From Deltaproteobacteria bacterium (GTDB lineage Bacteria; Myxococcota_A; Polyangia; Haliangiales; Haliangiaceae): a stretch of 41,478 bases of DNA. The stretch lies in NCBI GenBank assembly GCA_013812655.1, contig JACCTC010000060.1, positions 1 through 41,478 on the forward strand. Direction: 5' to 3'. The notes below the pieces were generated by a model. That model was not told where the DNA came from and did no database searches. It worked only from the letters and a program-made list of their open reading frames with translations. A program made the translations under genes and the position numbers. This document shows positions 746 to 24,789 of this stretch, in pieces. Position 1 is the first letter of the stretch. Every line of letters starts with the position of its first letter.

Positions 746-1166
746 CGGCAACGGTTGCGGACGCCATCCGCCCGTTGTCCGAATACCCGCCGGAAATCAG
801 ACCGTGCGCCTCGCCGTTGCAGAACGCGTGACGGCGCCGTGACTCGTGTGGACACGCGCCGGGGTCGACGGTGATGACCAGCCCGCGCCTGCCCACACGA
901 CTCACCGCGCTTCCCTCGAGCCACCGCTCCGTTTCTGATCATTTCATGTTTTGATCTGGGAGTGCGAGTGTTGGTTCGGGCTTCAAGAAGGTCGCTTCCA
1001 TGCAGCCTGTACACGGCCGCATCACAATGTTCCCGTACGGCAGCGTCGATAACTCACGAGCCAAAGCTGATGGATCACGTCGTGGCCACGCGGCGGCGAT
1101 CGACCAGGGCGCGGCGAGGTAGGCAGTGAGAGCTGTAATGTCATACTCGTGATGTAGAACAGTTGG
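746..1166. other. intergenic region, no gene recognised
   Basis: These 421 bases separate the small lipoprotein gene from the DUF222-HNH gene. Open frames here are short, run antisense and lack recognisable domains. The stretch around 935-990 is less GC-rich than its surroundings, so the promoter of the nuclease gene may lie in this interval, but I cannot point to a convincing -35/-10 pair. Confidence 0.4.
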
Positions 1167-4131: not shown

Positions 4132-4141
4132 GTGATCGCTC

Positions 4142-4780: not shown

Positions 4781-4790
4781 CGCCGCGAAC

Positions 4791-9379: not shown

Positions 9380-9410
9380 GGCTGTGAACGAGGTCCAGGC
9401 CATCGCGTGC

Positions 9411-10796
9411 TCAGCTCGCGCTGGGTCGCGGGGACGGCGAAAGCCGCTGCACGGACTCCGTCGCGATCAGCGCGTCGACGGCGATCGCCGGCGGAGGTAG
9501 TCCGGTGGATGATGCCGTTGCGGCCTCGGCCCGCGTCTCGGGCCGGTGATCGGCGCCCTCGGGCCGGTGATCGGCGACGGCGACGACGATCCGCTTGCGC
9601 AGCGCGATCACGGCGAGCGACATGCCGAGGAGCGAGATGCCGGCGACGAGCGCGATCGCCGTCGAGAGCTTCAGCTCGGTCCTGGCCGCGAGTTGCGAGA
9701 TCGCGACCGGGGCGAACGCGCCGATCATCGCGCCGACGTGATAGACGACGCCGATCGCCCGGCCGCGCACGTGGTCGGGGAACAGGCTCGTCGTCAGCAC
9801 AGGGGTGACGCCGGAGTAACCGACGCCGAGCGCGCCGCCGAGGAAGGCGCCGAGCGGCAGCAGGGCAGGGACCGCGCCGACGTAGAGCGGCAGCGCCGGG
9901 ATCATGAGGAGGGCCGGGGCGACCAGCGCGACGACAACACCGTGGCGATTCGCGACCCAGCCGGCGGCGACCACGCCGACCAGCATGCCGAGGTTGAACA
10001 GGATGACGTCGAACCAGGCGGCGCTGCGGTCGAGGCCGAGCTCGCCGACGAGCATCGGCACGTAGTTCGCGGTGAGGCCGTAGTAGACGAGGAAGCCCAG
10101 GCCCATCACCAGCGAGCCGAGGACGATCGCCTGGCGGATGCCCGGCGCCATCAGATCCTTGAACGTCCCCGAGCTGCGTGCCGCGGCGCCCTTGACCGGC
10201 TTGCCACTCAGCTCGTCGGGGACCAGGAATCGGATCGGGAAGACGAGGAGCGCGGGGACCGCGGCGATCAGGAACATCGCGCGCCAGCCGTAGGTCGGCA
10301 CCACGAAGTGGGCGACCGCGGCCGACAGCAAAAAGCCGATCGGCCAGCCGGCCTGCAGCAAGCCGGAGGCGATCTTGCGGCTCCGCACCGGCCAGTTCTC
10401 CATCGCCATCGCGGTGCCGGCGGTCCACTCCGCGCCCATGCCGAAGCCGAAGATCGTGCGGAGGATGACGACCCACATGAAGGACGGCGCGAAGTAGATC
10501 GCGGCGTCGAACACGGCGAACCACAGCAGCGACAGCATCAGCGGCAGCTTGCGGCCCCATTTGTCGGCCATCCAGCCGGCGACCCAGCCGCCGGCGAGGC
10601 GAACGATCAGCGTCAGCGTCACCGAGCCCGAGAGCGAGACGAGGCCGACGCCGAACTCCTTCGCGATCTCGTTCTGCACCATCAAGAAGATCGTGAAGTC
10701 GAACGCGTCGAGCACCCAGCCCGCCCATGCGGCACTGAAGGCAGCCCACTGACCCTTCGTTGGTTCCTTCCACCATGGCAGCTGTCGGTTCGGCAT
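9411..10796 (-). CDS. MFS transporter (carboxylate/sialate:proton symporter-like)
   Basis: This is a 461-residue major facilitator protein with about 12 helices. The first helix FDFTIFLMVQNEIAKEFG and the motif A loop GWMADKWGRK resemble the SHS/AAHS group (lactate, sialate and aromatic-acid:H+ symporters). A carboxylate substrate would suit a PHA locus, but this is inference. The ATG at 10796 precedes PNRQLPWWKE and the first helix; frame upstream is open but crosses a PhaR-box-like site. The cytoplasmic tail contains a 7-residue tandem repeat (ADHRPEG, then ADHRPET) from a 21-bp duplication at about 9541-9576. It lies between phaR and the phasin gene, divergent from the phasin. Confidence 0.82.
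   Translation of the reverse strand: MPNRQLPWWKEPTKGQWAAFSAAWAGWVLDAFDFTIFLMVQNEIAKEFGVGLVSLSGSVTLTLIVRLAGGWVAGWMADKWGRKLPLMLSLLWFAVFDAAIYFAPSFMWVVILRTIFGFGMGAEWTAGTAMAMENWPVRSRKIASGLLQAGWPIGFLLSAAVAHFVVPTYGWRAMFLIAAVPALLVFPIRFLVPDELSGKPVKGAAARSSGTFKDLMAPGIRQAIVLGSLVMGLGFLVYYGLTANYVPMLVGELGLDRSAAWFDVILFNLGMLVGVVAAGWVANRHGVVVALVAPALLMIPALPLYVGAVPALLPLGAFLGGALGVGYSGVTPVLTTSLFPDHVRGRAIGVVYHVGAMIGAFAPVAISQLAARTELKLSTAIALVAGISLLGMSLAVIALRKRIVVAVADHRPEGADHRPETRAEAATASSTGLPPPAIAVDALIATESVQRLSPSPRPSAS
9435..9446. terminator. CGGC-GAAA-GCCG hairpin between convergent phaR and MFS genes
   Basis: A perfect 4-bp stem with a GAAA tetraloop lies 55 bases after the phaR stop and just inside the 3' end of the convergent MFS gene. 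Similar GAAA/TTTC-loop hairpins occur at other gene ends in this window (23701, 23726, 33765). It may be a terminator or mRNA-end stabiliser; the short stem keeps confidence low. Confidence 0.35.
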
Positions 10797-11383: not shown

Positions 11384-12442
11384 ATGCAGGACGAGCTGAT
11401 CGGCTCCGCGAAGCAGATCGCGGACGCCTGGATGGACGTCGCCCTCGGTGCGCTCGGTACGCCACGACCGCAGGCGCCCCCGCTCGCGCAGACGCCACGT
11501 GACGAGCTGACGCTCGAGGGCGGCGCGCGGCTGTACCACTTTCGCGGCGCGGCGTCGGTCACCCGACCGATCGCGCAGCCGATCTTGCTCGTGCCGTCGC
11601 TCATCAACCGCTGGTACGTGCTCGATCTACGGCCGGGCGCGTCGCTCGTCGAGGCGCTGGTCGGCGCCGGATTCGACGTGTGGCTCCTCGACTGGGGCGT
11701 GCCCGAGGCCGAGGATCGTTATCTCGACTGGGATGCCGTGCTGCGCCGGCTCGGCCGCGCCGCACGTCGCGTGCTCCGCGAGATCGGACAGCCACGGCTC
11801 GGCGTCCTCGGCTACTGCATGGGCGGGACGCTGGCGACGATCTTCGCCACCCAGCACCCGGATCTGCTGACCGCACTCGTCACGCTCGCGGCGCCGATCG
11901 ACTTCGCACGGGGCGGCATGCTGCGCCGGATGGTCGATCCACAGTGGTTCGATGCCGACGCCGTCGCAGATGCCGGCAACGTCGCGCCGTCGCAGATGCA
12001 GGCAGGCTTCACCGCGCTGCGGCCGACACTCGACGCGGCCAAGCTTCACTCGATGCCCGAGCTGGCGAGCGATCCGCAGGCGCGCGCCGCGTTCCTCGCG
12101 CTCGACGCGTGGGCGACCGACAACATCCCGTTCCCCGCCGAGGCGTACCGCCGCTACATCCGCGAGATGTACCAGGGCAACCAGCTCGTCGCGGGAACCC
12201 ACCACACGAACGGCCGCGCCGCACCGCTCGGCGCGATCCGCTGCCCGACGCTGGTGATCACGGCATCGCGCGACACGATCTGCCCGGCGGCTGCAGCCAC
12301 CGCGCTCCTCGATCACGTCGCGTCGACCGACACCGCGGTCGTCGAGGTGCCGGGCGGTCATGTCGGTGCCGTCGTCGGCAGCAAGGCGGCTCGCGACATG
12401 TATCCGGCGCTGATCCGCTGGCTCGCGCCGCGGCTCGCGTAA
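11384..12442 (+). CDS. phaC: poly(3-hydroxyalkanoate) synthase, class III-like, copy 2
   Basis: A second PHA synthase of 352 residues, paralogous to the protein at 5657-6694. It shares the segment [17 protein letters not shown], the nucleophile box GYCMGG (C145), Asp297 in SRDTICP and His326 in GGHVGAVVG. Its N-terminus, about 1-40, differs and contains an amphipathic helix that could contact the phasin encoded just upstream. Two ATGs occur at 11378 and 11384; GGAG lies 1 base before the first and 7 before the second, so 11384 is preferred. The short length again implies a class III/IV-type catalytic subunit needing a partner. Confidence 0.92.
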   Translation: MQDELIGSAKQIADAWMDVALGALGTPRPQAPPLAQTPRDELTLEGGARLYHFRGAASVTRPIAQPILLVPSLINRWYVLDLRPGASLVEALVGAGFDVWLLDWGVPEAEDRYLDWDAVLRRLGRAARRVLREIGQPRLGVLGYCMGGTLATIFATQHPDLLTALVTLAAPIDFARGGMLRRMVDPQWFDADAVADAGNVAPSQMQAGFTALRPTLDAAKLHSMPELASDPQARAAFLALDAWATDNIPFPAEAYRRYIREMYQGNQLVAGTHHTNGRAAPLGAIRCPTLVITASRDTICPAAAATALLDHVASTDTAVVEVPGGHVGAVVGSKAARDMYPALIRWLAPRLA

Positions 12443-13132
12443 CTACTCCGCGAACAGGTCGTGCATGGTCACGCACTCGTAGCCGCTGGCATGGAGTGCG
12501 GTCACGATGCGCGGCAGCGCATCGAGCGTCCACTGCTGGCCCTCGTGGAGCAGCAAGACGTCGCCGGAGTCGACGTTCGGCGGCGAGCAGCGCTCGACGA
12601 TCGATGCCGTATCGTGATCGTCGTAGTCGCATGCATCGACCGACCACAGCGCGATCGTGTAGCCCGACGCCAGCAGGCTCACGAGCGACGTGGCATCCAC
12701 CGAGCCATGCGGCGGGCGGACCCACGGGCGACCGCTGAGCTGGCCACCCAGCGCGTCCTCGGTCTTCGCGAGTTGATCGAGGAGCGCACGCCGGCCGAGC
12801 TTGGTGAACCGGGTGTGGTCGTACCCGTGGTTCGCGACCTGGTGACCGCGCCGCAGGTACTCGCGGACGAGCTCGGGCCGCGCGGTCGCGTACTCGCCGA
12901 TCAGGAAGAACGTGGCGGGAACGCCGAGATCGTCGAGCACGTCGAGGTAGCGCTCGGTGTAGTCATCCGGGCCGTCGTCGAAGGTGAGCGCGACGCGCTT
13001 CGTGGTGGTCGGGCCCCGTCGCAGGCACCCGGGAAGCCGCTGGAACACGACGTTCTTGACGAGCGCGCGTACCGACGGGGTCGTGCTGACAGCCATGGGA
13101 GAAATCGTAGCCCGGAGGCGCAGCTCTCGCAT
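12443..13132 (-). CDS. polysaccharide deacetylase (NodB homology domain)
   Basis: The protein carries the NodB fold of carbohydrate esterase family 4. The catalytic motif TFDDGPD is at about residues 50-56, the zinc-binding motif NHGYDH at about 101-106, and a RPPHGS motif (usually RPPYG) at about 138-143. LLHEG near residue 195 supplies the last conserved His. Family members deacetylate chitin, peptidoglycan or other N-acetylated glycans. No clear signal peptide or membrane anchor is visible. ATG at 13132 gives 229 residues; an ATG at 13096 would remove 12 residues that are not conserved in the family. It converges on the second PHA synthase gene. Confidence 0.85.
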   Translation of the reverse strand: MRELRLRATISPMAVSTTPSVRALVKNVVFQRLPGCLRRGPTTTKRVALTFDDGPDDYTERYLDVLDDLGVPATFFLIGEYATARPELVREYLRRGHQVANHGYDHTRFTKLGRRALLDQLAKTEDALGGQLSGRPWVRPPHGSVDATSLVSLLASGYTIALWSVDACDYDDHDTASIVERCSPPNVDSGDVLLLHEGQQWTLDALPRIVTALHASGYECVTMHDLFAE

Positions 13133-13134
13133 CG

Positions 13135-13148
13135 GTGAGGCGCCTCAC
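13135..13148. promoter_or_regulatory. 14-bp perfect palindrome GTGAGGCGCCTCAC upstream of the deacetylase gene
   Basis: The palindrome lies 2 bases before the chosen deacetylase ATG and within the 46-bp gap to the acyl-CoA ligase stop. It could be an operator, or a hairpin that hides the ribosome-binding region. No other copy was seen in the window. Confidence 0.3.
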
Positions 13149-13178
13149 ATAGCGGCGAGGTGAGTTGTCCTCGTGCCG

Positions 13179-14786
13179 TCACGCCTTCGCGTAGTGGTCT
13201 CGATACGTCTCGCGCAGCTCGGTCTTCTTGAACTTGCCCGCCGAGGTGCGCGGGATCGCGTCGACGAAGACCACGCTGTCGGGCAACCAGAACTTCGGGA
13301 ACGTGGGAGCGAGGTGCGCGCACAGCTCCGCCGCGGTGGCCTGGGCGCCCGCCTTCAGCACGACCGCCGCCAGCGGCCGCTCGCTCCACTTCGGGTGCGC
13401 GACGCCGATCACCGCTGCCTCCTTGACCGCCGGATGACCCATGAGCGCGTTCTCGAGCTCCTGCGACGCGATCCACTCGCCGCCACTCTTGATCAGGTCG
13501 GCGACCCGGTCGGTGAGCTGTACAAACCCGTGCTCGTCGACGCGCGCGACGTCACCGGTGCGAAACCAGCCATCGGCCGTCCACCGCTCCGGCGTCGCGT
13601 CGTTCGCGTAGCGGCCGGCGACCCACGGACCCTTCACGAGCAGCTCGCCGCTGGTGCGATCGTCCGCCGGCACGTCGCCCGCCTCGTTGCGCACGCAGAC
13701 ATCGACCAGCGGCGGCGGCACGCCCTGCTTGGCCCGCAGCCGGTAGCGCACGGCCTCGTCGGCGTCCGCGAGGTGCGCCGGGACCCGCGAGACCAGGCCG
13801 ATCGGCGATGTCTCGGTCATCCCCCACGCGTGGATCAGCGTCATGCCGAGGCGATCGAAGTCGCGGATCAGCTGCTCGGGTGCGGCCGATCCACCGACGA
13901 CCATCCGCAGCCCCGGCTGGAGCTGCCACTTGCCCGGACTGCCGTCGAGCGCCTCGCGGATCCCGAGCCAGATCGTGGGCACGCCGGCGGCGATCGTGAC
14001 CCGCTCCTGCGCCATCAGGTCGAGGAGGCTCGGTGGATCGAGGTGAGGGCCGGGGAACACGAGCCTGGTACCCGACATCGCCGCGATGAACGGCAGCCCC
14101 CACGCGTTGACGTGAAACATCGGGACGACCGGCAACAGCGTGTCGGCGCGGGTGACGCCGAGCGCGTCCGGAAGCGCCGCGACGAGCGTGTGGAGGATCG
14201 TCGAGCGGTGGCTGTAGACGACGCCCTTCGGCTTGCCGGTGGTGCCGCTCGTGTAGCAGACCCCGAGCGCGTCGGTCTCGGCGAGCGCGGGCAGCGTCGT
14301 CTGTTCGGTCGCGGTCTCGAGCAATGCCTCGTAGCTCTCGTGCGTGCCGTGCGCGCCGACGACCAGGACACGCTCGAACCGCGCGCCGCTCGCGACGACC
14401 TTCTCGTAGAGCGGCAGCAGCACGTCGTCGACGATCAGGTAGCGATCTCGCGCGTCGTTCGCGATGAACGCGATCTCGTCGGGGTGGAGCCGCAGGTTCA
14501 GCGTGTGCGTCACCGCGCCGGCGAGCGGGATCCCGAAGTACGCCTCGAGGTGCTCGGCGTGGTTCCACATCAGCGTCGCGACCCGGTCGCCCTTGCGGAT
14601 GCCGGCGGCGACCAGCGCTCGCGCGAGCTTCCGGGCACGACCCGCGATCGCGCCATAGGTCGTCCGCGACAGGCTCCTGTCGGGACGCCGCGACACCACC
14701 TCGCATCCGCCCATCCAGCGCTCCGCGCGATCGAGCACGAGCTCGATCGTCAGCGGGACGTCCATCATGCAGCTCGTCGTCGTCAT
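13179..14786 (-). CDS. acyl-CoA synthetase (AlkK-like, medium/long-chain fatty acid--CoA ligase)
   Basis: A 535-residue adenylate-forming ligase. Motifs are [11 protein letters not shown] (A3), [11 protein letters not shown] (A5), [14 protein letters not shown] and [14 protein letters not shown] (A8), and the catalytic Lys in [11 protein letters not shown] (A10). The [16 protein letters not shown] and [18 protein letters not shown] segments are typical of AlkK-like enzymes that activate medium- or long-chain acids. GAGGAGG, 6 bases upstream of the ATG at 14786, supports the start. It is divergent from the large surface lipoprotein gene with a shared 74-bp promoter region containing an inverted repeat, and is likely part of the fatty-acid/PHA theme of this region. 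Confidence 0.92.
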
Positions 14787-14860: not shown

Positions 14861-17800
14861 ATGCTGGGGAAGCTCACGGGTGTCGTCATTGTCATGGCCG
14901 TCGCGCTCGCAGCGTGCGGCGATAACCTCGAAGGCGTCGAGAACGGCGCTCCGCAAGTCGGCTCGCTGGAGCTGACGACCGAGGAGGATACGCCGGTCTC
15001 CGGCACGCTCTCGGTCACCGACGCCGAGGGTGATGACATCACGATTATGCTGGGCAACCCGATGCACGGGACGATCACGCAGAGCGGCGGCATGGTCACG
15101 TACACCCCGGATGCCGACTACAACGGCACCGACAGCGTGATGGTGGCGGTCTCCGACGGCACGCTCGAGGCATCCGCGACGATCACGATCACGATCACCG
15201 CGGTCAACGACGCACCGCAGGCGGTCGCCGACTCGTTCGCCACCGGCGAGGACGTGGCGCTCGAGGTCGAGCGCACCGCGCTGACGGCGAACGATACCGA
15301 TGTCGACGGCGATACCCTCACGGTCTCCGTCGTCGACATGCCGGTGAATGGCACCGTCGCGATCGTCGGCACCGACGTCGTGTTCACGCCCACCCCGGAC
15401 TTCAACGGCACCGCGAGCTTCCGGTACACCATCACCGACGGGAACGCGACCAGCTCCGCGACCGTGAACGTCACCGTCGGGGGTGCGAACGACGCGCCGG
15501 TTGCCGTCGACGACACCGCGACGACCCCGGAGGACACCGCGCTCGTGATCAGCAGCGCGACCCTCGTCGCGAACGACACCGATGCCGAGAACCAGACGCT
15601 CACCGTGACCGCGGTCGCGAACCTCACCAACGGCACCGTCGCGCTCGCCGGCGGCAACGTCACCTTCACGCCGACCACGAACTTCAACGGCACCGCGACG
15701 TTCCAGTACACCGTCTCCGACGGCGCCGCGACCGACACCGGCGTCGTCACCGTCACGGTGACCGCGGTCAACGACGCGCCGGTCGCCGTCGACGACACCG
15801 CGACGACGCCCGAGGACACCGCGATCACCCTGAGCTCGGCCACGCTCACCGCGAACGACACCGACGTCGACGCCGGTCAGACCCTCGTCGTCACCGCCGC
15901 GACCAGCGCCGTGAACGGCACGGTCTCGATCGATGCGAACGGCGCGGTCACCTTCACGCCGACCGCGAACTTCAGCGGCACCGGCAGCTTCGTGTACACG
16001 GTCTCCGACGGCAACGGCGGTACCGACACCGCGACCGTCACGATCACGATAGGCGCCGTCGGCGACGCGCCGGTCGTCGGCCCGGACTCCGTGACGACCA
16101 ACGAGGACACCGCGATCAACATCGCGGCGGCGACCCTGCTGGCCAACGACTCGGACCCCGATGGCGAGACGCTCACCCTCACCGCGGTCAGCAACCCGAC
16201 CAATGGGACCGTGTCGCTCGCGAACAACATCGTCACGTTCACGCCGGCGGCAAACTTCAACGGGATGGCGTCGTTCCAGTACACGGTCAGCGACGGCAGT
16301 ACGTCGTCGACCGGCCTCGTAACCGTCACGGTCACCGCGGTCAACGATCCGCCGGTCGCGGTCAACGACACTGCGTCCGCCGCGTCCGGCGCAGCGACGA
16401 GCTATCCGACCTCGCAGTTCCTCGCGAACGACACCGACATCGACGGTGGCACGCTCGTGATCACTGCCGTGAGCAACCCGAGCAACGGCACGGTGGCGCT
16501 GAACGGGACGACGATCACGTATCAGTCAGCCTCGACGTTCGTGGGCACCGCGACCTTCGACTACACGTTATCGGACGGCAACGGCGGGACGGACACCGGC
16601 ACCGTATCGGTCACGGTCCTCGCACCCTCGAGCTGCGGCGACGGGCTTATCACGGGTCCGGAATCCTGCGACGACGGCGGCGTGATTCCGACCGGCGGCG
16701 ATGGCTGTGACGCGAACTGCGCGATCGAGCCCGGCTTTCAGTGCGCCGGCCAGCCGAGCATCTGCCAGGAGGTCTGCGGTGACGGCATCATCACGAGTGG
16801 CGAGGCTTGCGACGATGACAATACCGCTCCAGGCGATGGCTGCAGTGACCAGTGCGCCATCGAATTCGGCTTTCAGTGCGCCGGCCAGCCGAGCATCTGC
16901 CAGGAGGTGTGCGGCGACGGCATCATCACGGGCGGCGAGGCTTGCGACGATGACAATACCGCTTCAGGCGACGGCTGCAGTGACCAGTGCGCGCTCGAGC
17001 CCGGCTTTCAGTGCGCCGGCCAGCCGACGATCTGTCAACCGATCTGCGGCGACGGCATCATCGCGGGCGACGAGAGTTGCGACGATGACAATACCTCTCC
17101 AGGCGACGGCTGCAGTGACCAGTGCGAGGTAGAGGCCGGCTTTCAGTGCGCCGGCCAGCCGAGCATCTGCCAGGCAATCTGTGGTGACGGCATCATCGCG
17201 GGCGGCGAGAGTTGTGACGACGACGGGACTGATCCAGGCGATGGCTGCAGCGCCCAGTGCGCTGTCGAATCCGGCTTTCAGTGCGCCGGCCAGCCCAGCA
17301 TCTGCCAGACGGTCTGCGGCGATGGGGTAGTGACATCGGACGAGCAGTGCGACGACGACAACGATATCAACACCGACGGTTGCACGAACGAGTGCACCTT
17401 CGGCGTGGTTTGCAATGCGACCGCGTATCCGGGCGGTACGGCCTTCACCGTCGATCCCGTGTCCGGGACCTGCTACGTGGCGTTCGCCGCCACGCAGACG
17501 TTCGCAGATGCCCAGGCATCCTGCGTGGCGTCCGGTGGTTACCTCGCCACGATCACGTCGGGTGCCGAGAACACGATCGTGCGCGCTGTCGAGGCGGCCG
17601 GCCAGAACCCCTGGATCGGCGCGTTCGAAGACGCCAACGACGTCGACGACGTCTTCACCTGGGTCACTGGCGAAGCGTTCGCATTCAAGAACTTCGCGAC
17701 CGGCCAGCCCGACGATGATGTCCTGCAGGCAGGCAACGGCGATTGCCTCCACATCGTGAACGACGCCGGTCAGTGGAACGACACGAACTGCACCTTCGCC

Positions 17801-18547
17801 GGCTTCGTCACCAGCCGGATCTGCGAGTTCGAGCTCGCACCGTGCGGCGACAACGTGTTGCAGACGTCGGAAGGCGAGGCGTGCGACGACGGCAACACGG
17901 CCAACGGCGACGGCTGCAGCGCTACATGCACGGTCGAATCCGGCGCAGTTTGCAGCGGGACGGCTCCGACAACGTGCGCGAAGCTCGTGATCAACGAGAT
18001 CGAGTACGACAACATCGGTACCGATAGCAGCGAGTTCATCGAGATCTTCAACGCTGGCACCGCATCCGCTGATCTCACGAACCACGCCGTCGTGCTCGCC
18101 AACGGTGGGGTTTCGCCGGCGGTCCAGTATGGACGAATCAACCTGAGCGGAACGCTTGCACCCGGAGCCTACGCCTTGATCTGTCCCGCCAACTCTACCG
18201 TGGGCAATTGCGGTAGCCGTTTGATGCCCGTTGGCACGACGCGCTTCCTGTTCACCGGAAGTACGGATCAGATCCAGAATGGCGCGAGCGACGCTATCGG
18301 CCTGTTCGTCATCGTCGGGACCACGGCGACGCCGGTCGACGTCGTCAGCTACGAGGGCACGCTGGCCACCGCGCAGATCACAGGGGTCGTCGGAACGTCG
18401 CCGTTCGTCGAGGGCACGGGGATCGTCACTGGCGAGGACAACGTCATTGATGTATCCGTCCAGCGCCTGCCCAACGCCCGCGATACCCAGAACAACAATG
18501 CGGACTTCGCGCTGAGAGCGCCCACGCCAGGTGCACCGACACCCTGA
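14861..18547 (+). CDS. large mosaic surface lipoprotein: cadherin-like repeats, DUF4215 repeats, C-type lectin and lamin-tail domains
   Basis: The 1228-residue protein begins with a lipoprotein signal peptide ending LAAC (Cys19). Residues about 28-590 are six cadherin-like/VCBS-type repeats of about 94 residues, each with NDAPVAVDDTATTPEDTA-like linkers and FTPxxNFNGTATFQYTVSDG strands. Residues about 592-850 are six DUF4215 Cys-rich repeats of 45 residues (CGDGII...CDDDN...GDGCSDQC). About 850-993 is a C-type lectin-like domain (WIGAFED, WNDTNC). One more DUF4215 unit (about 994-1041) leads to a lamin-tail domain starting LVINEIEYDN. Such proteins act in adhesion or cell-surface recognition; the ligand is unknown. 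Asp-rich repeats suggest calcium binding. Confidence 0.9.
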   Translation: MLGKLTGVVIVMAVALAACGDNLEGVENGAPQVGSLELTTEEDTPVSGTLSVTDAEGDDITIMLGNPMHGTITQSGGMVTYTPDADYNGTDSVMVAVSDGTLEASATITITITAVNDAPQAVADSFATGEDVALEVERTALTANDTDVDGDTLTVSVVDMPVNGTVAIVGTDVVFTPTPDFNGTASFRYTITDGNATSSATVNVTVGGANDAPVAVDDTATTPEDTALVISSATLVANDTDAENQTLTVTAVANLTNGTVALAGGNVTFTPTTNFNGTATFQYTVSDGAATDTGVVTVTVTAVNDAPVAVDDTATTPEDTAITLSSATLTANDTDVDAGQTLVVTAATSAVNGTVSIDANGAVTFTPTANFSGTGSFVYTVSDGNGGTDTATVTITIGAVGDAPVVGPDSVTTNEDTAINIAAATLLANDSDPDGETLTLTAVSNPTNGTVSLANNIVTFTPAANFNGMASFQYTVSDGSTSSTGLVTVTVTAVNDPPVAVNDTASAASGAATSYPTSQFLANDTDIDGGTLVITAVSNPSNGTVALNGTTITYQSASTFVGTATFDYTLSDGNGGTDTGTVSVTVLAPSSCGDGLITGPESCDDGGVIPTGGDGCDANCAIEPGFQCAGQPSICQEVCGDGIITSGEACDDDNTAPGDGCSDQCAIEFGFQCAGQPSICQEVCGDGIITGGEACDDDNTASGDGCSDQCALEPGFQCAGQPTICQPICGDGIIAGDESCDDDNTSPGDGCSDQCEVEAGFQCAGQPSICQAICGDGIIAGGESCDDDGTDPGDGCSAQCAVESGFQCAGQPSICQTVCGDGVVTSDEQCDDDNDINTDGCTNECTFGVVCNATAYPGGTAFTVDPVSGTCYVAFAATQTFADAQASCVASGGYLATITSGAENTIVRAVEAAGQNPWIGAFEDANDVDDVFTWVTGEAFAFKNFATGQPDDDVLQAGNGDCLHIVNDAGQWNDTNCTFAGFVTSRICEFELAPCGDNVLQTSEGEACDDGNTANGDGCSATCTVESGAVCSGTAPTTCAKLVINEIEYDNIGTDSSEFIEIFNAGTASADLTNHAVVLANGGVSPAVQYGRINLSGTLAPGAYALICPANSTVGNCGSRLMPVGTTRFLFTGSTDQIQNGASDAIGLFVIVGTTATPVDVVSYEGTLATAQITGVVGTSPFVEGTGIVTGEDNVIDVSVQRLPNARDTQNNNADFALRAPTPGAPTP
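14942..16630 (+). repeat. six tandem cadherin-like repeats, about 280 bp each
   Basis: These are coding repeats within the surface lipoprotein gene. Units begin near NDAP motifs and share DNA words such as AACTTCAACGGCACCGCG and GTCACCGCGGTCAACGA. Divergence between units is moderate, so this is an established domain array more than a recent expansion. Confidence 0.8.
16634..17390 (+). repeat. DUF4215 repeat array, about 135 bp per unit, nearly identical units
   Basis: Six units each start at a TGCGGCGACGG-type word. Five contain the almost invariant stretch encoding FQCAGQPSICQ, with long identical DNA runs (for example GGCTTTCAGTGCGCCGGCC). Several acidic codons here use GAT and AAT more than the flanking gene. 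Near identity points to recent duplication or gene conversion. Confidence 0.85.
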
Positions 18548-18584: not shown

Positions 18585-19643
18585 TCAGCCCGCGCTGACG
18601 TCGAGCGGGAACCGCACCGTGAAGGTCGTGCCCGTCTCGACGGTCGACTCGACGTCGACGCTGGCATCGTGGACGCGCGCGATCTGATCGACGATGTAGA
18701 GACCGAGCCCGAAACCACCCGCGCGACCGTTCGCGCGCTTGAACGGGTCGAACAGCGTCGCGAGTGCGTCCGGCGCGATCGGGCTGCCGCCGTTGTGGAC
18801 CTGCAGAACCACATGACGCAGCTCGCGTGCGACTCGCACCGTGATGGGTCCATCGCCGTGGCGAACGGCATTGCCGATCAGGTTGTCGACGAGCTGGTTC
18901 AGCTTGTCGACGTCTGCGTTGATCCACGCCTCCGGCTGGAGCTGGAGCACGAGCTTGCGTTCTGTGCCGTGCGCCGCGTCGCGCGCCACTAGCTCACAGA
19001 GCGTGGAGAGCTCGATGCGCTGGCGCGAGACCGGCACCACGTCGGTCATCGACTGCGTGAACACCACGAGCTGATCGATCATCCGCTTCATGCGGGCGAG
19101 CGTGCGCTGCAGGCGCATGACGATGTCGCGGTCGCTCTCGTTGTTGCGTGGCGACTCCGCGAGCAGCGACAGGCCCGTGCCGATCGTGCTCAGCGGGTTC
19201 CGCAGATCATGGCCGAGGGTCGCGAGAAACATCTCGAAAGCGCGCGCCTTGTCGCGTTCGGCCTGGCGGAGCCGGATCAGCGCGCCGAGCGAGGCGATGA
19301 GCTCGACCATCTCGACGGGGTGCACGAGGTACGCATCGGCACCGAGCTGGAGGCCGCGCGCGCGGTCCTCGGCGGTTGCGAGCGTCGCCGACAGCTCGAG
19401 GACCTTGACGCCAGCGGTCTCCGGGTTTGACTTGATGCGCCTGCAGACGTCCCAGCCGTACATGTCGGGGAGCTTCATGTCGAGGATCGCCACGTCGTGA
19501 TCCTTGTGGATCTTTGCGAGGCCTTCCTCGCCCGTCTCGGCCTCGTCGATGTGGAACCCTGCCGCCCGGAGCTGGCGCGCGATGACGTAGCGCTTGCCGA
19601 CGTCGTCCTCGACAAACAGGATGTGTGGCTTGTGATCAACCAT
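18585..19643 (-). CDS. hybrid sensor: N-terminal receiver plus histidine kinase
   Basis: Residues about 7-120 form a receiver with acidic pair E12-D13-D14 and phospho-acceptor D55 (ILDMKLPD). The conserved Lys of the LxKP motif is replaced by His (LVHP, about 106-109), which may alter phosphorylation. A linker helix leads to a HisKA domain with H145 in LGHDLRNPLST, then a HATPase_c domain with N-box DNLIGNAVRHG, the NGGSPI variant of the G1 box, and G2 GGFGLGLYIVD. There is no membrane segment, so the protein is cytoplasmic. It is the last gene of the stressosome operon, overlapping the preceding gene by 8 bp, and probably receives phosphate from or signals with that kinase. Confidence 0.88.
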   Translation of the reverse strand: MVDHKPHILFVEDDVGKRYVIARQLRAAGFHIDEAETGEEGLAKIHKDHDVAILDMKLPDMYGWDVCRRIKSNPETAGVKVLELSATLATAEDRARGLQLGADAYLVHPVEMVELIASLGALIRLRQAERDKARAFEMFLATLGHDLRNPLSTIGTGLSLLAESPRNNESDRDIVMRLQRTLARMKRMIDQLVVFTQSMTDVVPVSRQRIELSTLCELVARDAAHGTERKLVLQLQPEAWINADVDKLNQLVDNLIGNAVRHGDGPITVRVARELRHVVLQVHNGGSPIAPDALATLFDPFKRANGRAGGFGLGLYIVDQIARVHDASVDVESTVETGTTFTVRFPLDVSAG

Positions 19644-21399
19644 GGTGCGTCTCCACGGGGATGGCGATGCCCGCGCTGACTAGCGCCGCTTCGATCGCGG
19701 CACGGTCGGCGACTCGAGACGACGTGGACTTGCGCAGCACGGCGACCGCCGCGGCGAGGCGCGCGCGATCGTTCGTCCCGAGCGTGAGCGCCGTGTACAC
19801 CACGACGGGGATATCACAGGTCACGGCGTCTGCCTTCAGCCGTTCGAGCACCTCGAATCCGGTGAGGTCGGGCATGATGACGTCCAGAAAGATCGCCGAG
19901 GGCCGGGACTGTGCGAGCCGCAGCCCTTCCTGGCCGCTCTCGGCCTCGTCGACGACGTAACGGTCGCCGAGCCAGCGCCGCAGCACGTAACGCGACGCCA
20001 GGTCGTCGTCGATCACGAGGATGCGAGATTCGCGGATCGCCGGGAGTGCCGCGACCACCTCGATGTCAGGGGCGCGCAGTGGTCCGCTCTCCTCGCCGGC
20101 ATAGCGCACGGGCAGCTCGAGCCGAAACGTCGATCCCGTCCCCGAGGTCGTGACGATCTCGAGGCCGCCACCGAGCAGGTGCGCGAGCCGACGCGACAGC
20201 GGCAAGCCGAGACCGCTGCCGCGGGTCCGAGGCTGCGTGCTGCCGTCGACCTGCGCGAACTCGCGAAAGATCAGCTCGCGGTTCTCCTCCGAGATCCCGA
20301 CGCCGGTATCCTCGACCTCGAAGATCACGCTGTCGTTGCCGTTCGCGCGCGCGCGAACCACGACATGGCCGCGCTCCGTGAACTTGAACGCGTTCGCGAC
20401 GAGGTTGCGCAGCACCTGCGAGACCTTGTGCTCGTCCGTGGTCAGGCGCGGCAGCGTGGGGTCGATGACGAGCCGCAGCTGCACGCGCGGCGGCACGAGC
20501 GGTTGCATGATGCGGCGGAGCGTCTTCAGCATCGCATCGACGGAGAACGTCGCGACGTGCACGGGTGCCTTGCCGGCGTCGGTGCGCGCGAGATCGAGCA
20601 GGTCGTTGACGTAGTTCGTCAGCGTCTCGGCGACCTCGTGGATGATCCCGACCTGCTTGTCCTGCTCCGCGTTGAGCTCGCCGTCGAGACGGTCGATCAG
20701 GAACTGCGAGATCGTCGAGATCGAGTGGAGCGGCGTGCGCAGCTCGTGTCCCATCTCGGAGAGCAGGCGCGTCCGCAGCTCGACGGCCTGCCGCTGGTAC
20801 TCGGCGCGATCCTCGAGCTCGGCGTGGAGCGCCATCACGCCGCGATTGGTCTCGGTCAGCTCCTCGGTGATCTCGACGATCCGCGCGTCGCGCTCGGCGA
20901 CATCGCGCTGCAGCCGGCGGATCTCCTGGGTCGGGTCATCGGCGAGCTGCCCCGCGAGCTGCGAGCGCATGTTGCCGACCCGCGCGATGTCGACCTTGGG
21001 GGCTCGCCGTGGCACCCGCTTCGCCATCTCGACGCGCGTTCCGGCCGGCGTCGACTCGACCTCGAAGCTGTCCATCAGGCGGCGCGCGCCGGGCATGCCG
21101 ACGCCGAGACCGGTCGTCGACCGGCGTTCTCCCGCGAGGATCTGCTCGAGGTCCGGGATCCCCGGGCCGCGATCGAGCACCGAGATCGTGAACTGCTCGC
21201 GGGTGTCGTCGAGCCCGAGCGTGACCGCGCCGCCACTCGCATACGTCAGCGCGTTGCGCGCGATCTCCGAGATCGCGGTCGCGATCCGCGTCTGCTCGAA
21301 CGTCGAGAACCCGAGCTGGGATGCGATCGTGCGCGTGGTCTGGTGCGCGCGCACGACGTCATCCTCGCCGCGGATATCGATCAAGCCGAGCTCGATCAT
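19636..21399 (-). CDS. RsbT-like ATPase - histidine kinase - receiver fusion
   Basis: This 587-residue cytoplasmic protein has four parts. Residues 1-128 are an RsbT-type anti-sigma/serine-kinase ATPase (SEIARNALTYASGG, LDRGPGIPDLEQIL, TTGLGVGMPGARRLMDSF). About 155-215 is a coiled coil. About 205-275 is HisKA with H218 in MGHELRTPLHS, followed by HATPase_c (NLVANAFKFT, DTGVGIS, GSGLGLPLS) to about 432. About 458-580 is a receiver with D506 (FLDVIMPD). The start at 21399 overlaps the stop of the phosphatase gene (ATGA). The N-terminal domain could dock to the RsbR/RsbS complex like RsbT and so place a histidine kinase under stressosome control; that is inference. Confidence 0.88.
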   Translation of the reverse strand: MIELGLIDIRGEDDVVRAHQTTRTIASQLGFSTFEQTRIATAISEIARNALTYASGGAVTLGLDDTREQFTISVLDRGPGIPDLEQILAGERRSTTGLGVGMPGARRLMDSFEVESTPAGTRVEMAKRVPRRAPKVDIARVGNMRSQLAGQLADDPTQEIRRLQRDVAERDARIVEITEELTETNRGVMALHAELEDRAEYQRQAVELRTRLLSEMGHELRTPLHSISTISQFLIDRLDGELNAEQDKQVGIIHEVAETLTNYVNDLLDLARTDAGKAPVHVATFSVDAMLKTLRRIMQPLVPPRVQLRLVIDPTLPRLTTDEHKVSQVLRNLVANAFKFTERGHVVVRARANGNDSVIFEVEDTGVGISEENRELIFREFAQVDGSTQPRTRGSGLGLPLSRRLAHLLGGGLEIVTTSGTGSTFRLELPVRYAGEESGPLRAPDIEVVAALPAIRESRILVIDDDLASRYVLRRWLGDRYVVDEAESGQEGLRLAQSRPSAIFLDVIMPDLTGFEVLERLKADAVTCDIPVVVYTALTLGTNDRARLAAAVAVLRKSTSSRVADRAAIEAALVSAGIAIPVETHHG

Positions 21400-22397
21400 G
21401 GCCCCTCGCGAAGGACGACCACGATGGCGTCGTCTCGACCGCGTCCGAAGTCGCGCCACAACGTCGCCGCGATCGTGTAAGGAGCGCACGCGAGGAGCCC
21501 GGGGTGTGCGCCGAGGTTCCACCGCGACTTGAGCCCGTCGCTGTGGATCACGAGCGTCGTGCCGGCCGGGAACGGATAGCGCTCGTCGCGCAGCTTCGGC
21601 GTGGCCTGGCCCAGGGTGCCGTGCTGGGTGACGAGCTGGCGCTGGGACTCGCCGATCAGCCACGGCTGGACATTCCCGACCCCCGCGACCACGCACGTCT
21701 GCTCCCGCCCGTCGACGCGTGCGACCGTCGCTCCCGCACCGCGGGTCGGACGCGCCGCTTGATCTGCCCGCATCAGAATGTCGCCAGGAGCGTCGAGCGG
21801 CCGCGTGCGAAACGACGCGATCACCGCGGCGGCGGCCTCGGCCGCACCGTCGCCGTGGCCGAGGCCGTCGACCACGATCACGCTCGTCACGTCTCCCTCG
21901 ACGTGCATCGCCCACGCGTCCCCGGAGCGCGTCATCCCGGGGTACGGCACGCACACGCCGCCCACCGCGAAGCGAGCCGGCGAGACGGGCTCGTGCGCGA
22001 ACACCGTCGCGGTGACGACCGTGCCTTGCCCGCGTCGCGAGTACGCGTCCCAGCGGCTCGCGAGCCGCGAGATCGCGCCGAGCCCGGCACCCGCCGTGCC
22101 GGCCGTGGACATGCCGTCGCGCAGGCACGCCTCGACGTTCATGCCAGGTCCGCGATCCCAGGCGACGAGCGCGACACCGCTCGAGCCGCCGCGCGTGATC
22201 GGCGCGATGAGGGCGCCACCATGCTGGGCATGCTTGAGGACGTTGGTGCTCGCCTCGGTCGCGATCAGCGCGGCGTCCCCGGTCCGGCTCTCGTCGAGGC
22301 CGGCGGCCTGCGCGAGCGTGGCGAACCGCCGGCGCACGTTGCCGACGTCGGCGTCGTGCTCGAGGCCGAAGACCTCGCTGGTGCCGGTCACTTCCAT
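21396..22397 (-). CDS. RsbT-like ATPase fused to SpoIIE/RsbX-type PP2C phosphatase
   Basis: Residues about 8-138 form an RsbT/RsbW-like HATPase domain (IATEASTNVLKHAQHGG, WDRGPGMNVEACLRDG, AGAGLGAISRLA). Residues about 145-333 resemble the SpoIIE/RsbX PP2C domain, with the metal-binding Asp in VVDGLGHGDGAAEAA and a later SDGLKSRW. In Bacillus, RsbX dephosphorylates RsbR and RsbS to reset the stressosome; the order rsbR-rsbS-rsbT-this gene supports the same role. The ATG at 22397 was chosen because it starts 10 bp inside the end of rsbT, while upstream frame has no similarity. The ATPase-phosphatase fusion is found in several proteobacterial stressosome loci. Confidence 0.87.
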   Translation of the reverse strand: MEVTGTSEVFGLEHDADVGNVRRRFATLAQAAGLDESRTGDAALIATEASTNVLKHAQHGGALIAPITRGGSSGVALVAWDRGPGMNVEACLRDGMSTAGTAGAGLGAISRLASRWDAYSRRGQGTVVTATVFAHEPVSPARFAVGGVCVPYPGMTRSGDAWAMHVEGDVTSVIVVDGLGHGDGAAEAAAAVIASFRTRPLDAPGDILMRADQAARPTRGAGATVARVDGREQTCVVAGVGNVQPWLIGESQRQLVTQHGTLGQATPKLRDERYPFPAGTTLVIHSDGLKSRWNLGAHPGLLACAPYTIAATLWRDFGRGRDDAIVVVLREGP

Positions 22398-22810
22398 CGG
22401 ATCACCCGTACGCGCGTCCCGCGACCAGGTGCCGAGTCGATCTCGAACTCGCTGCACAGCCGCCGCGAGCCGCTGAGCCCGAGGCCGAGGCCCTTGCCGG
22501 TCGTGTAGCCGTCGCGGAGCGCGAGCTCGAGGTTCGGGATACCAGGCCCTTCGTCGACGAACGTCATCCGTACGCCGCGCCGGATGCCATCGGTGACGAC
22601 CTCGATGTCGGCGTACCCACCGCCACCGTGCTCGAGCGCGTTGCGCGCGAGCTCGCTCGCCGCGGTCACGAGCTTGGTCGTCTCGAGCAGCGAGAATCCT
22701 GCACGCTGTGACTGCTCGCGCGCGCGCTGGCGGACGACGACGACGTCCTCGTTCGCAGCGATCTCGACGCGAACCGGTGGCTTGTTCGGATCAGGTATCG
22801 CGGGCGTCAC
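22388..22810 (-). CDS. rsbT: stressosome switch kinase RsbT
   Basis: The 140-residue protein is a GHKL-type Ser/Thr kinase. Its N-box is ASELARNALEHGGGG, its G1 box is FVDEGPGIPNLELALRDGYTTG, and it ends with GLGLGLSGSRRLCSEFEI, all closely following RsbT. In Bacillus, RsbT is held by the RsbR-RsbS stressosome, phosphorylates both on stress and is released to activate a downstream partner. The gene overlaps rsbS by 20 bp and the phosphatase gene by 10 bp. No RsbU or RsbW/RsbV genes follow; the downstream genes encode two-component proteins instead. Confidence 0.92.
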   Translation of the reverse strand: MTPAIPDPNKPPVRVEIAANEDVVVVRQRAREQSQRAGFSLLETTKLVTAASELARNALEHGGGGYADIEVVTDGIRRGVRMTFVDEGPGIPNLELALRDGYTTGKGLGLGLSGSRRLCSEFEIDSAPGRGTRVRVIRWK

Positions 22811-23153
22811 GGAGGAGCTCCATGCCTTGCTCGACGTCGAGCGCGGTCCTCACCCCCGGCAACGTCATCCCCAGCTCGACGAGCGTGATCGCGACCGCCG
22901 GCTGCATGCCGACGACGACCGTCTGCGCGTCGAGGATCCGCGACGTCGCCGCGACGTCCGCGATCATCCGTCCGATGAACGAGTCCACCATGTCGAGCGC
23001 CGAGATATCGATGAGCACGCCGCGCGCGTGTGTCTTCACGACCATGGTCGTCAGATCGTCGAGCAAGCGCACCGCGAGCTGATCGTGCATGTCGACCTGG
23101 ACGGTGACGAGCAGCGTGTCGCCCATGCGGAGAATCGGAATGCGGTCGGCCAT
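22791..23153 (-). CDS. rsbS: stressosome STAS protein RsbS
   Basis: A single-domain STAS protein of 120 residues. It begins with PILRMGDTLLVTVQVDM and contains DISALDMVDSFIGRMI, in which S58 aligns with the Ser phosphorylated by RsbT in Bacillus RsbS. The segment GMQPAVAITLVELGM is also characteristic of RsbS. It forms the stressosome core together with RsbR and sequesters RsbT. It starts 3 bp after rsbR and overlaps rsbT, as in canonical rsbR-S-T modules. Confidence 0.93.
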   Translation of the reverse strand: MADRIPILRMGDTLLVTVQVDMHDQLAVRLLDDLTTMVVKTHARGVLIDISALDMVDSFIGRMIADVAATSRILDAQTVVVGMQPAVAITLVELGMTLPGVRTALDVEQGMELLRDARDT

Positions 23154-23156
23154 GAT

Positions 23157-23660
23157 TCAGGGCGCCCGGGAGGACGGACCGACCGACGACGGACCGAGGG
23201 ACTGGCCGAGCTTCTTCAGCGCGAGCCGGAACGCATCGGCGAGGGTCGCCTTCGTGGTCACACCCTGCAGCTCGACCCCGAGGTGCACGATCGTCTGTGC
23301 GATCTGCGGCCGGATGCCGCTGATGATGCACTCGGCACCCATGAGGCGGGTCGCCGCGACGGTCTTCAGCAGGTGCTGCGCGGTCAGCGTGTCGACGGTC
23401 GGCACGCCGGTGATGTCGAGGATCGCGATCGGCGACCGGGTGGCGACGATCTGCTGGAGCAGGGCCTCCATCACGACCTGCGTGCGCTGCGAGTCGAGCG
23501 TGCCGATGATCGGCAGCGCGAGGATGCCGTCCCACAGCTGGATCACCGGCGTCGAGAGCTCGAGCATGTCCTCGCCCTGCCGGCGGATGACCTCCTCGCG
23601 AGCGGTCTGGTGGACCTGTTCGCATCGGCCGTCGCACCGAATCCCCGCTTGCCAGCGCAT
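23157..23660 (-). CDS. rsbR: stressosome STAS protein RsbR with a minimal N-terminus
   Basis: The C-terminal STAS domain (about residues 33-150) is classic RsbR: LELSTPVIQLWDGILALPIIGTLDS, DITGVPTVDTLTAQHLLKT and GIRPQIAQTIVHLGVEL. T84 and T123 correspond to the Thr region targeted by RsbT and its homologues. Usual RsbR proteins are about 270-300 residues with a globin-like or other sensory domain; this one is 167 residues with only about 30 residues before the STAS domain, so its sensor is missing, replaced, or encoded elsewhere. A GTG at 23663 is directly adjacent and equally possible. It is the first gene of the six-gene operon. Confidence 0.9.
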   Translation of the reverse strand: MRWQAGIRCDGRCEQVHQTAREEVIRRQGEDMLELSTPVIQLWDGILALPIIGTLDSQRTQVVMEALLQQIVATRSPIAILDITGVPTVDTLTAQHLLKTVAATRLMGAECIISGIRPQIAQTIVHLGVELQGVTTKATLADAFRLALKKLGQSLGPSSVGPSSRAP

Positions 23661-23682
23661 CACCGACGTAAAATTTTCATCA

Positions 23683-23739
23683 GGGCGGCTGCGCCCGATC
23701 GGGCGAAAGCGCCCTCGCTTCGATCGGGCGAAAGCGCCC
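23683..23739. terminator. three short hairpins with GGGCG/CGCCC stems between the ARPP-1 gene and the stressosome operon
   Basis: The hairpins lie at 23683-23696 (loop GCTG), 23701-23714 and 23726-23739 (both GGGCG-AAAG-CGCCC). The last two are part of a 24-bp direct repeat (23696-23719 and 23721-23744). On the minus strand the final hairpin is followed after a few bases by AAAATTTT. They start right at the ARPP-1 stop codon and end about 20 bp before rsbR, so termination or attenuation between the two transcripts is likely. Confidence 0.55.
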
Positions 23740-23742
23740 TCG

Positions 23743-24789
23743 CTACTTGGCTTGGTACGTCTGGTAGACGGCCGGCGCCTCTGCCGATGCCGGCTTCGCA
23801 GGGTCCGCGGACTTCATCATGACCTTGGCCTTCGAGGCCTTGAAGCCCTTCTTCGTCATCGTCGAGCTTGACCGCGTCTCGTACGCGCTCTCCTCGGACG
23901 CCTGCTCGGCATCGTCGATGAAGTCCTTGACGTCGGCCGCGGTCGGCGGCTTGACGTCCTTGGCGGCGACGATGTCCACCGCCTCGGTCACGTAGGACTT
24001 GAGGAGCTTGCTCTCGAGCTTCTTGAACAGCGTCGGCGACTGGAACATGTCGACGGTGGCGACCTTGCCGTTCAGCGCGACCACGTAGCCAACCATCTTC
24101 GCGCGATCGCCCGCGGGGATCTTGGCGAGCGCATCGTCGACCTTCTTCTCCCACGTCCGCAGCGAGCCGTTCTGCTGCTGCTGCGCGACCTGGCGGTAGG
24201 TGTCGGTGCGGTTCGTGGTCTTGCGCGCCGCGTTCTTCGACTTCACTTCGTTCCACACCGCGCCCTGCTCCTCGAAGCTCGCCTTGCCGCGGAGCCGGCC
24301 GTGCGCGAGCGCCTTCGCGGAGGTGAACGTCTTGCTCTTGTTGTCCCAGCGGCCGTGCTCGACACAGAACACCGGCACGGTCTGCGTCGTCTTCGCGGGG
24401 ATGATCGTGTTCGCGCCGATGATCCGGTCCTGCTTGCCGCCGAGGATCACCTCGCCCGCGAGGACGAAGAGCGGACGATCACTGCGGTTGATGAGGACGA
24501 GGTTGTTGACGTCCTCGTTGGGCGCCTCGCGGATCTTGACCTTGTTCGATGCCATGGCCTCGTCGAGGACCAGCACGTCGGGCGGCGGGGTCTCGCTGCC
24601 CTTGCCGAGGATCGGCGTGATCGTCAGGCTCTCGACCTGGATCGGCGCGAGCAAGGTCGCGTTCGCGAGCGGGTCCTTTGCAATCTGCGCCGGTTTCGGC
24701 GGCCCGGCGGTCTGCTTCGCAGGAGCCTCCGCGTGGACGGTGGTGGCGATACAGAGCGAGAACGCGAGCAAGCCGATGGCGGGACGCAT
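23743..24789 (-). CDS. secreted ARPP-1-type (DUF6569-like) protein
   Basis: The 348-residue protein has an N-terminal signal peptide (about 1-20, ending VHAEA). Residues about 45-330 resemble the ARPP-1 domain (ARG and rhodanese-phosphatase-superfamily-associated): LTITPIL, VLVLDEAMASNKVKIREAPNEDVNNLVLINRS, and the hallmark PLFVLAGEVILGGKQDRII. Function in this family is unknown. The C-terminal 70 residues are Lys/Ala/Glu-rich and low in complexity. GGAGG lies 4 bases upstream of the ATG. It may share transcription direction with the stressosome operon downstream, but three hairpins separate them. Confidence 0.75.
   Translation of the reverse strand: MRPAIGLLAFSLCIATTVHAEAPAKQTAGPPKPAQIAKDPLANATLLAPIQVESLTITPILGKGSETPPPDVLVLDEAMASNKVKIREAPNEDVNNLVLINRSDRPLFVLAGEVILGGKQDRIIGANTIIPAKTTQTVPVFCVEHGRWDNKSKTFTSAKALAHGRLRGKASFEEQGAVWNEVKSKNAARKTTNRTDTYRQVAQQQQNGSLRTWEKKVDDALAKIPAGDRAKMVGYVVALNGKVATVDMFQSPTLFKKLESKLLKSYVTEAVDIVAAKDVKPPTAADVKDFIDDAEQASEESAYETRSSSTMTKKGFKASKAKVMMKSADPAKPASAEAPAVYQTYQAK

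Follow-up and report, generated by a model that had tools for sequence, protein, structure and literature searches.

Stressosome-type modules that are followed by two-component genes have been described from Gram-negative bacteria by Heinz et al. 2022 (PMC9237108), where downstream proteins with HisKA and REC domains are treated as the putative output of rsbRSTX. In the parts of that paper considered here, the modules have the R-S-T-X order, lack rsbU, rsbV, rsbW and sigB, and are accompanied by kinase and receiver proteins; RsbR carries a globin sensor and RsbX is a single-domain PP2C phosphatase. The route of sigma-B-free signalling is left open in the same parts, with only a possible route offered. 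In V. vulnificus, deletion of RSTX and deletion of the downstream kinase give similar phenotypes, according to portions of PMC10014275. Coupling of a stressosome to two-component proteins without a sigma-B cascade is a sound conclusion, but its general form is already in the literature (Heinz 2022; Cutugno 2023). Two further systems offer points of comparison: RsbT of Bacillus subtilis, which activates RsbU via the N-terminal domain and linker of the latter (PMC12143880), and the hybrid kinase RsbK of Bacillus cereus, which uses a signalling helix to act on the sigma-B pathway (PMC4574943).

The window, which is the whole stretch of 41,478 nucleotides from contig JACCTC010000060.1 that was analysed, contains six minus-strand genes at 18585-23663, every frame of which is open (Table 1). 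Their order is RsbR, RsbS, RsbT, X (RsbT-like domain and PP2C), K (RsbT-like domain, histidine kinase and receiver) and M (receiver and histidine kinase). The R-S gap is 3 nt, and the other four of the five junctions overlap (S-T by 20 nt, T-X by 10, X-K by 4 and K-M by 8), in agreement with the initial annotation, which had described six minus-strand genes, nearly all overlapping. Its statement that every domain hallmark is present holds for the domains of all six proteins found by Pfam, including those that make K and M histidine kinase/receiver proteins, but not for the sensor of RsbR, which is missing and had been overlooked. The start codon of rsbR is uncertain (GTG 23663, ATG 23660 or ATG 23567), and a promoter and terminator scan found none of either. 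Compared with the modules in the consulted parts of PMC9237108, the operon differs in having relatives with RsbRD_N, an RsbT-like domain on X, and a K protein with both an RsbT-type domain and the linker motif TN[RQ]GVxAL.

Table 1. Coordinates of the operon and of features discussed in the text.
Feature	Position	Strand	Details
rsbR-like gene (P0001)	23157..23663	-	STAS about 23232-23537 (Pfam STAS 1.2e-13)
rsbS (P0002)	22791..23153	-	Pfam STAS; solved RsbS chains
rsbT (P0003), small GHKL kinase	22388..22810	-	Pfam HATPase_c and HATPase_c_2
X (P0004)	21396..22397	-	RsbT-like domain about 22005-22352; PP2C (SpoIIE) about 21414-21893; Pfam HATPase_c_2 and SpoIIE (SpoIIE 3.4e-10)
K (P0005)	19636..21399	-	RsbT-type about 21010-21399; HisKA about 20572-20775; HATPase about 20107-20436; receiver about 19732-20022; Pfam HATPase_c_2, HisKA, HATPase_c and Response_reg
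K linker-helix motif TNRGVMAL, residues 184-191	20827..20850	-	Starts 34 residues before His218
M (P0006)	18585..19643	-	Receiver (Asp54), then HisKA (His145) and HATPase; Pfam Response_reg, HisKA and HATPase_c
Block edge and rsbR truncation point	23617..23745	.	24-nt tandem repeat at 23696-23744

On balance it is probable that the target of a stressosome-type switch of this kind is a phosphorelay, not a sigma factor, and that control is exerted via the linker of K. Here the switch would consist of an RsbR/RsbS scaffold, the RsbT kinase and an RsbX-like feedback phosphatase. The RsbT-type domain of K would dock on the RsbR/RsbS core in the manner of free RsbT, and phosphorylation of RsbS Ser58 and of RsbR would free it. 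Either this release or the binding of free RsbT would then alter the helix that joins the RsbT-type domain to HisKA at TN[RQ]GVxAL, making the motif the putative entry point of the RsbT signal. K would autophosphorylate on His218, the phosphate would reach an unlinked regulator by way of the K and M receivers, and RsbR and RsbS would be reset by X. We infer the docking, the release, the direction of the effect and the flow of phosphate; computed support comes from the domain content, the catalytic residues in place, the RsbT-type K domain, the fixed linker and the conserved gene order. The final regulator of the phosphorelay was not found in the analysis.

The core proteins can be told apart by comparison with solved chains. 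R matches the RsbR kind best (8.6e-34) and the RsbS kind more weakly (4.3e-13), whereas S matches RsbS chains best (9.8e-32) and RsbR chains more weakly (5.1e-10). Ser58 of RsbS aligns with the serine that is replaced by alanine in the solved chain 9o4r. This residue and Ser58 and Thr92 of RsbR are all present and at least 90% conserved, the RsbR positions being phosphorylation sites in Listeria and Bacillus. The rsbR, rsbS and rsbT homologues are adjacent, as in an RsbRSTX module, and the PP2C phosphatase that adjoins them retains conserved acidic residues, consistent with a predicted feedback role as RsbX.

Downstream of K and M the window has neither rsbU, rsbV or rsbW nor a sigma gene, as had been read from the locus initially; the next gene after M is a convergent surface-protein gene. 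Across the genome, 0/10 matches to the SigBFG model lie above the curated cut-off. On contig C366, which has no SigBFG match, a small STAS gene adjoins an RsbW-like gene beside a glycosyltransferase; this pair leaves a small chance of an rsbV/W link elsewhere in the genome. The absence of a sigma-B cascade from the locus distinguishes K from RsbK, which controls sigma-B according to the abstract of PMC4574943; by description only, the two are alike as hybrid histidine kinases that belong to a stress pathway and in which a signalling helix has a regulatory part.

The complete six-part order is found in 71/81 main-set loci, which excludes a chance arrangement, and at least some of the remaining loci are contig ends. 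The initial annotation had proposed a survey of gene order in other myxobacterial genomes; the order recurs beyond the myxobacteria, in eight phyla, and the operon is therefore no myxobacterial speciality. Among the carriers is Deinococcus radiodurans, whose megaplasmid MP1 bears a six-gene operon of identical content and order (DR_RS15570 to DR_RS15595, NC_000958.1). Its K has an RsbT-type domain (108.6 bits) and the motif, with 41% identity to the K of the window, and its RsbR is full length, with STAS from residue 185 of the open frame, while that of the window is truncated. Sigma-free two-component wiring cannot count as a novelty, since two-component outputs of RsbRSTX modules are already in print and the D. 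radiodurans operon has the same order. The kinase domain was counted in the same ORF for 14/72 M proteins, a figure that reflects the strictness of that search; of two M proteins scanned with Pfam, both contain HisKA.

The RsbR of the window is incomplete, its N-terminal sensor having been lost. Pfam finds no RsbRD_N sensor in this protein or anywhere on the contig, while the domain was found in 9/9 relatives scanned. Only 30 residues precede STAS from the first possible start, or 80 in the stop-to-stop frame, compared with 117 (at a contig end) or at least 149 in the stop-to-stop frames of 90 related loci. Homology of R to the related locus L009 begins at about 23617. As RsbR is sensorless in the assembly, the local operon copy may be sensor-blind or driven from elsewhere. 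A more severe reading, that the operon is decaying or mis-assembled in the source genome, with rsbR broken and the local system silent, is a real though minor possibility. It draws on the position of the rsbR break, at the border of a block that the sister genome G001 lacks between the same neighbouring genes, and on the draft state of the assembly (508 contigs); against it, all six frames are open, the 24-nt repeat at the junction occurs nowhere else in the genome, and pairwise dN/dS against L009 runs from 0.26 (STAS part of R) through 0.28 (T) and 0.35 (K) to 0.50 (M), values that mostly reflect the time before truncation.

K combines phospho-His218, a HATPase domain and the receiver Asp506 in one chain, as in hybrid histidine kinases, and its N-terminal domain is specifically RsbT-type. 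An RsbT HMM built from 91 RsbT sequences, that of the window included, scores 111.9 bits for this domain, 62.1 for the X domain, 18.9 for the HATPase of K itself and 9.2 for M; the RsbW-like protein of the genome scores 6.2 bits, ruling out a generic or RsbW-type ATPase. The initial supposition that RsbT, free or as a kinase domain, gates a phosphorelay appears to stand. The K domain forms an old lineage apart from RsbT and the X domain in a tree of few columns with unsettled bootstrap, in which the outgroup sits on a very long branch and the RsbT sequences hold together in no more than 24% of bootstrap trees. Its GHKL residues are at least 90% conserved (18 rows), as might be expected if the domain acted on the core, perhaps as a kinase of RsbS or RsbR, with information flowing from the histidine kinase into the stressosome; X, expected to act on the same STAS proteins, likewise has an RsbT-like domain in 84/85 loci. 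Such inward flow is nevertheless unlikely. The RsbT domain is missing from 53/74 main-set kinases, mostly gammaproteobacterial, so fusion is not required, and all 53 keep the place and the linker motif, which fits an output role better. A description of an RsbT-kinase fusion and the string TNRGV were both absent from the literature searched; Pane-Farre 2005 and 2017, which may describe the operon, fall outside that search.

An output role via the linker is consistent with the RsbT-RsbU pair, in which, in the available sections of PMC12143880, the RsbT signal is likewise received by an N-terminal domain together with a helical linker that governs the output domain; this analogy supports the linker of K as the RsbT entry point. 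RsbU has RsbU_N and a phosphatase output, whereas K has an RsbT-type domain (HATPase_c_2) in that place, with no Pfam match to RsbU_N, and a histidine kinase output. Residues 156-235 of K are modelled by AlphaFold2 as one helix (mean pLDDT 79.9), and since pTM is 0.39 domain placement is not read from the model; the Foldseek matches listed for it are mainly ordinary histidine kinases. The motif, which starts 34 residues before the phospho-histidine, is present in 73/74 main-set kinases, fused and unfused, and is missing in 3/5 kinases at loci of the same phylum that are more distant. With the 52-residue linker alone as query, 24 plasmid records matched, and R-S-T-X lies just upstream in all eight that were opened, besides those of D. 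radiodurans and D. psychrotolerans. A DNA-pattern scan of 377 genomes, in which some codons are missed, gave 12 matches, five of which qualify as TN[RQ]GVxAL; one of these (TNRGVAALTS, in G300) is in a genome without an RsbS match. The strict form TN[RQ]GV[VM]AL[HY]A, set after the matches had been seen, occurs 4/4 times in RsbS genomes. A reversed control pattern matched six times in the same genomes, so most of the other pattern matches are chance. The motif thus appears almost confined to stressosome loci.

This near-confinement and the recurrence of the gene order in eight phyla make it quite improbable that the kinases are operon neighbours working alongside the switch, perhaps as an additional input, and that RsbT makes no direct contact with them but has another, unlinked target, even though, in the parts of PMC9237108 considered, other downstream architectures are interchangeable and binding of V. 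vulnificus RsbT to the two-component protein D1, which may or may not be of the K family, could not be demonstrated. The preferred reading, in which the stressosome signals through the linker of K, can be extended tentatively, and with some doubt, to the output kinase being itself a stressosome subunit: the cis-fused RsbT would dock so that the RsbR/RsbS shell carries histidine kinases, and TN[RQ]GVxAL would be a dedicated helix element by which two-component stressosomes in general, from Actinomycetota to Cyanobacteriota, receive RsbT. The way in which the RsbT switch is joined to the kinase suggests, in a form that can be tested, how the signal may be handed over, and the operon class supplies the parts, namely a kinase-borne RsbT domain and a nearly invariant, mutable helix motif, in the tractable D. 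radiodurans. Two-component stressosome outputs could, in addition, be recognised in sequences by this motif. Its R/Q letter was dropped as a marker of fusion: R occurs in all 21 main-set kinases with an RsbT domain and Q in all 53 that lack one, but L145 and L146 carry R without the domain, and the difference is therefore likelier due to descent.

The six genes that the initial annotation named on the minus strand, encoding RsbR, RsbS, RsbT, an RsbT-like PP2C phosphatase (X), an RsbT-type domain fused to a histidine kinase and receiver (K), and a receiver-histidine kinase (M), lie where it placed them, and its description of them as nearly all overlapping and as bearing every domain hallmark was borne out, save for the sensor of RsbR (below). 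Four junctions overlap (S-T by 20, T-X by 10, X-K by 4 and K-M by 8 nt), rsbR and rsbS are separated by a 3-nt gap, and all six proteins have Pfam matches. Both RsbR and RsbS match solved stressosome proteins, and acceptor or catalytic residues are present in RsbS (Ser58), RsbR (Ser58 and Thr92), K (His218 and Asp506) and M (His145 and Asp54). In Listeria and Bacillus the two RsbR positions carry phosphorylation.

Features in the window, at related loci and elsewhere in the same genome
Feature	Sequence	Coordinates	Strand	Domains or remarks
Six-gene operon	window	18585-23663	minus	
RsbR	window			STAS
RsbS	window			STAS
RsbT	window			HATPase
X	window			HATPase_c_2, SpoIIE
K	window			HATPase_c_2, HisKA, HATPase, receiver
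M	window			receiver, HisKA, HATPase
Sensor-less rsbR with its 5′ edge	window	23157-23745		5′ edge coincides with that of the block absent between the matching flanking genes in the sister genome
Putative surface protein, 1228 aa	window	14861-18547	plus	bacterial Ig/cadherin-like repeats, DUF4215 repeats, C-type lectin domain, lamin-tail domain
AMP-binding ligase gene	window	13179-14786		
X in two frames	L009, closest relative	1110-2482		RsbT-like and PP2C parts separate
K with tandem motif	L163, actinobacterial	3973-5643		TNxGVxA(L/M) twice in linker
K with tandem motif	L164, actinobacterial	3436-5676		TNxGVxA(L/M) twice in linker
STAS and RsbW-like proteins	C366 (L142)	~12071-14342		adjoining, beside a glycosyltransferase gene
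RsbRD_N and HATPase_c_2 matches	C431 (L141)	9326-10423		frames of equal length (425 aa)

The wiring of a stressosome to two-component kinases, the headline of the initial annotation, is already known in its general form, since Heinz et al. (PMC9237108) list HisKA/REC phosphorelays among the modules downstream of rsbRSTX, and Cutugno et al. (PMC10014275) report similar phenotypes in V. vulnificus on deletion of either half. The fusion of an RsbT domain to a kinase and the linker signature were not found in the accessible parts of the literature searched, two key reviews lying outside its reach.

A scan with RsbS confirmed at least 553 relatives, of which the best 80 loci were retained, a sample biased to close relatives and rich in Pseudomonas. 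Ten regions from the window's phylum and a pair of Deinococcus plasmid records brought the number of loci examined to 92, with rsbS in 91, rsbR in 90, rsbT in 91, X in 85, the kinase in 79 and the subsequent receiver gene in 74. All six genes occur in 71 of the 81 loci of the main set (the 80 plus D. radiodurans), at least some of the others being contig ends. The survey of gene order that had been proposed recovered the full order at a Myxococcota locus (L075) and in seven other phyla (Pseudomonadota, Acidobacteriota, Planctomycetota, Cyanobacteriota, Bdellovibrionota, Deinococcota and Actinomycetota); the Gemmatimonadota loci are cut by contig ends. The annotation of D. radiodurans MP1 gives the six no more specific names than STAS protein, anti-sigma regulatory factor and ATP-binding protein. 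K (E <= 1e-80) was detected in 2 of 30 genomes of the window's family, and RsbS (E <= 1e-20) in 33 of 377 genomes of its phylum. One cyanobacterial locus (L081) has R-S-T without X or a kinase after them on that strand, and a kinase with the linker motif nearby on the opposite strand.

The RsbT-like N-terminal domain of X is found in 84 of 85 loci, the exception being the closest relative (L009), where the split frames may reflect either a frameshift or a sequencing error. Among the 79 kinases the RsbT-type domain scores above 50 bits in 17 and 20-50 bits in seven, and is absent from 55, mostly short kinases of Pseudomonas and Xanthomonas relatives. On a hidden Markov model of RsbT (91 sequences) the K domain of the window reached 111.9 bits and that of X 62.1, compared with 18.9 for K's own ATPase, 9.2 for the ATPase of M and 6.2 for the RsbW-like protein of the same genome. 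In a tree of 66 domains those of X form one group (99/98) and those of K another (94/100), each recovered in all of 200 bootstrap trees; RsbT itself does not come out as a single group (24%). These RsbT-like domains look like old, separate lineages rather than recent copies.

An invariant stretch lies in the K alignment within the helix ahead of HisKA, where 73 of the 74 kinases in the main set carry TN[RQ]G[VIML]xAL, namely all 53 without an RsbT domain, all four weak fusions and 16 of the 17 strong ones. In each of the 70 measured, the motif starts 34 residues ahead of the phospho-histidine; at distant loci two of five kinases have it. An AlphaFold2 model of K predicts a single helix (residues 156-235) that leaves the RsbT-type domain, takes in the motif and continues into HisKA. 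Two actinobacterial K proteins carry the motif in tandem (table).

In a test independent of RsbS, a 52-residue linker from Nostoc served as tblastn query against 72,556 plasmid records and returned 24: 15 from D. radiodurans, which has the same R-S-T-X-kinase order, one from D. psychrotolerans, whose sequence begins at the kinase, and eight others, all with R-S-T-X just upstream of a motif-bearing kinase. A DNA pattern for the motif occurs once in the window's genome, within K. Across the 377 genomes of the phylum it gave 12 matches against 6 for a reversed control. Four of the 12 translate to the strict form TN[RQ]GV[VM]AL[HY]A, each 1.9-2.2 kb from rsbS and all in genomes among the 33 with RsbS (chance 5e-5, for a form chosen after the matches were seen); for a looser form the figure was four of five. 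In genome G367 the motif-bearing kinase lies upstream of rsbR.

PMC12143880 describes activation of RsbU by RsbT through binding to the N-terminal domain and linker of RsbU, and proposes such linkers as common to histidine kinases too. In K the RsbT-type domain occupies the place of RsbU_N, and the linker persists where that domain is absent. Because of this analogy and this persistence, we infer that the RsbT signal would enter K at the linker; in the fused form RsbT would be provided in cis, and K might thereby dock on the stressosome. Heinz et al. (PMC9237108) report unsuccessful attempts to show an interaction between V. vulnificus RsbT and the two-component protein D1.

The initial annotation requires one correction, as the window's rsbR has no sensor domain. 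It comprises the STAS domain preceded by 30 residues (first possible start) or 80 (stop-to-stop frame); in 90 related loci that frame has 117 residues ahead of STAS (L009, at a contig end) or at least 149, and the sensor domain RsbRD_N was matched in nine of nine relatives scanned. The STAS part is 89% identical to that of L009, which is labelled Deltaproteobacteria, Myxococcota, and homology starts at ~23617. A search of the window's genome with the L009 RsbR frame returned R and S only, and therefore no second RsbR was seen there to provide the sensor.

In the sister genome (G001, taken as the same assembly as the record behind L009) the counterpart of the window's AMP-binding ligase gene comes immediately after the ARPP-1 gene, and the stressosome operon sits on a different contig. 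Since the flanking genes are joined there and the operon lies elsewhere, the window's ~14.8-23.7 kb is either an insertion here or a loss in the sister genome, with rsbR cut at the block edge. The 24-nt tandem repeat at the junction has no further copy in the genome, which makes a repeat-driven mis-join less likely. The putative surface protein gene lies inside the same block, convergent with the operon.

RsbRD_N has five matches in the genome, four above the cut-off, and none on the window's contig. One contig (C431) has RsbRD_N and HATPase_c_2 matches together, and may encode a histidine kinase with a sensor of the stressosome type. Of the four STAS matches in the genome, two are R and S and the others lie on C366 and C21; on C366 the small STAS protein and its RsbW-like neighbour form another putative partner-switch pair.
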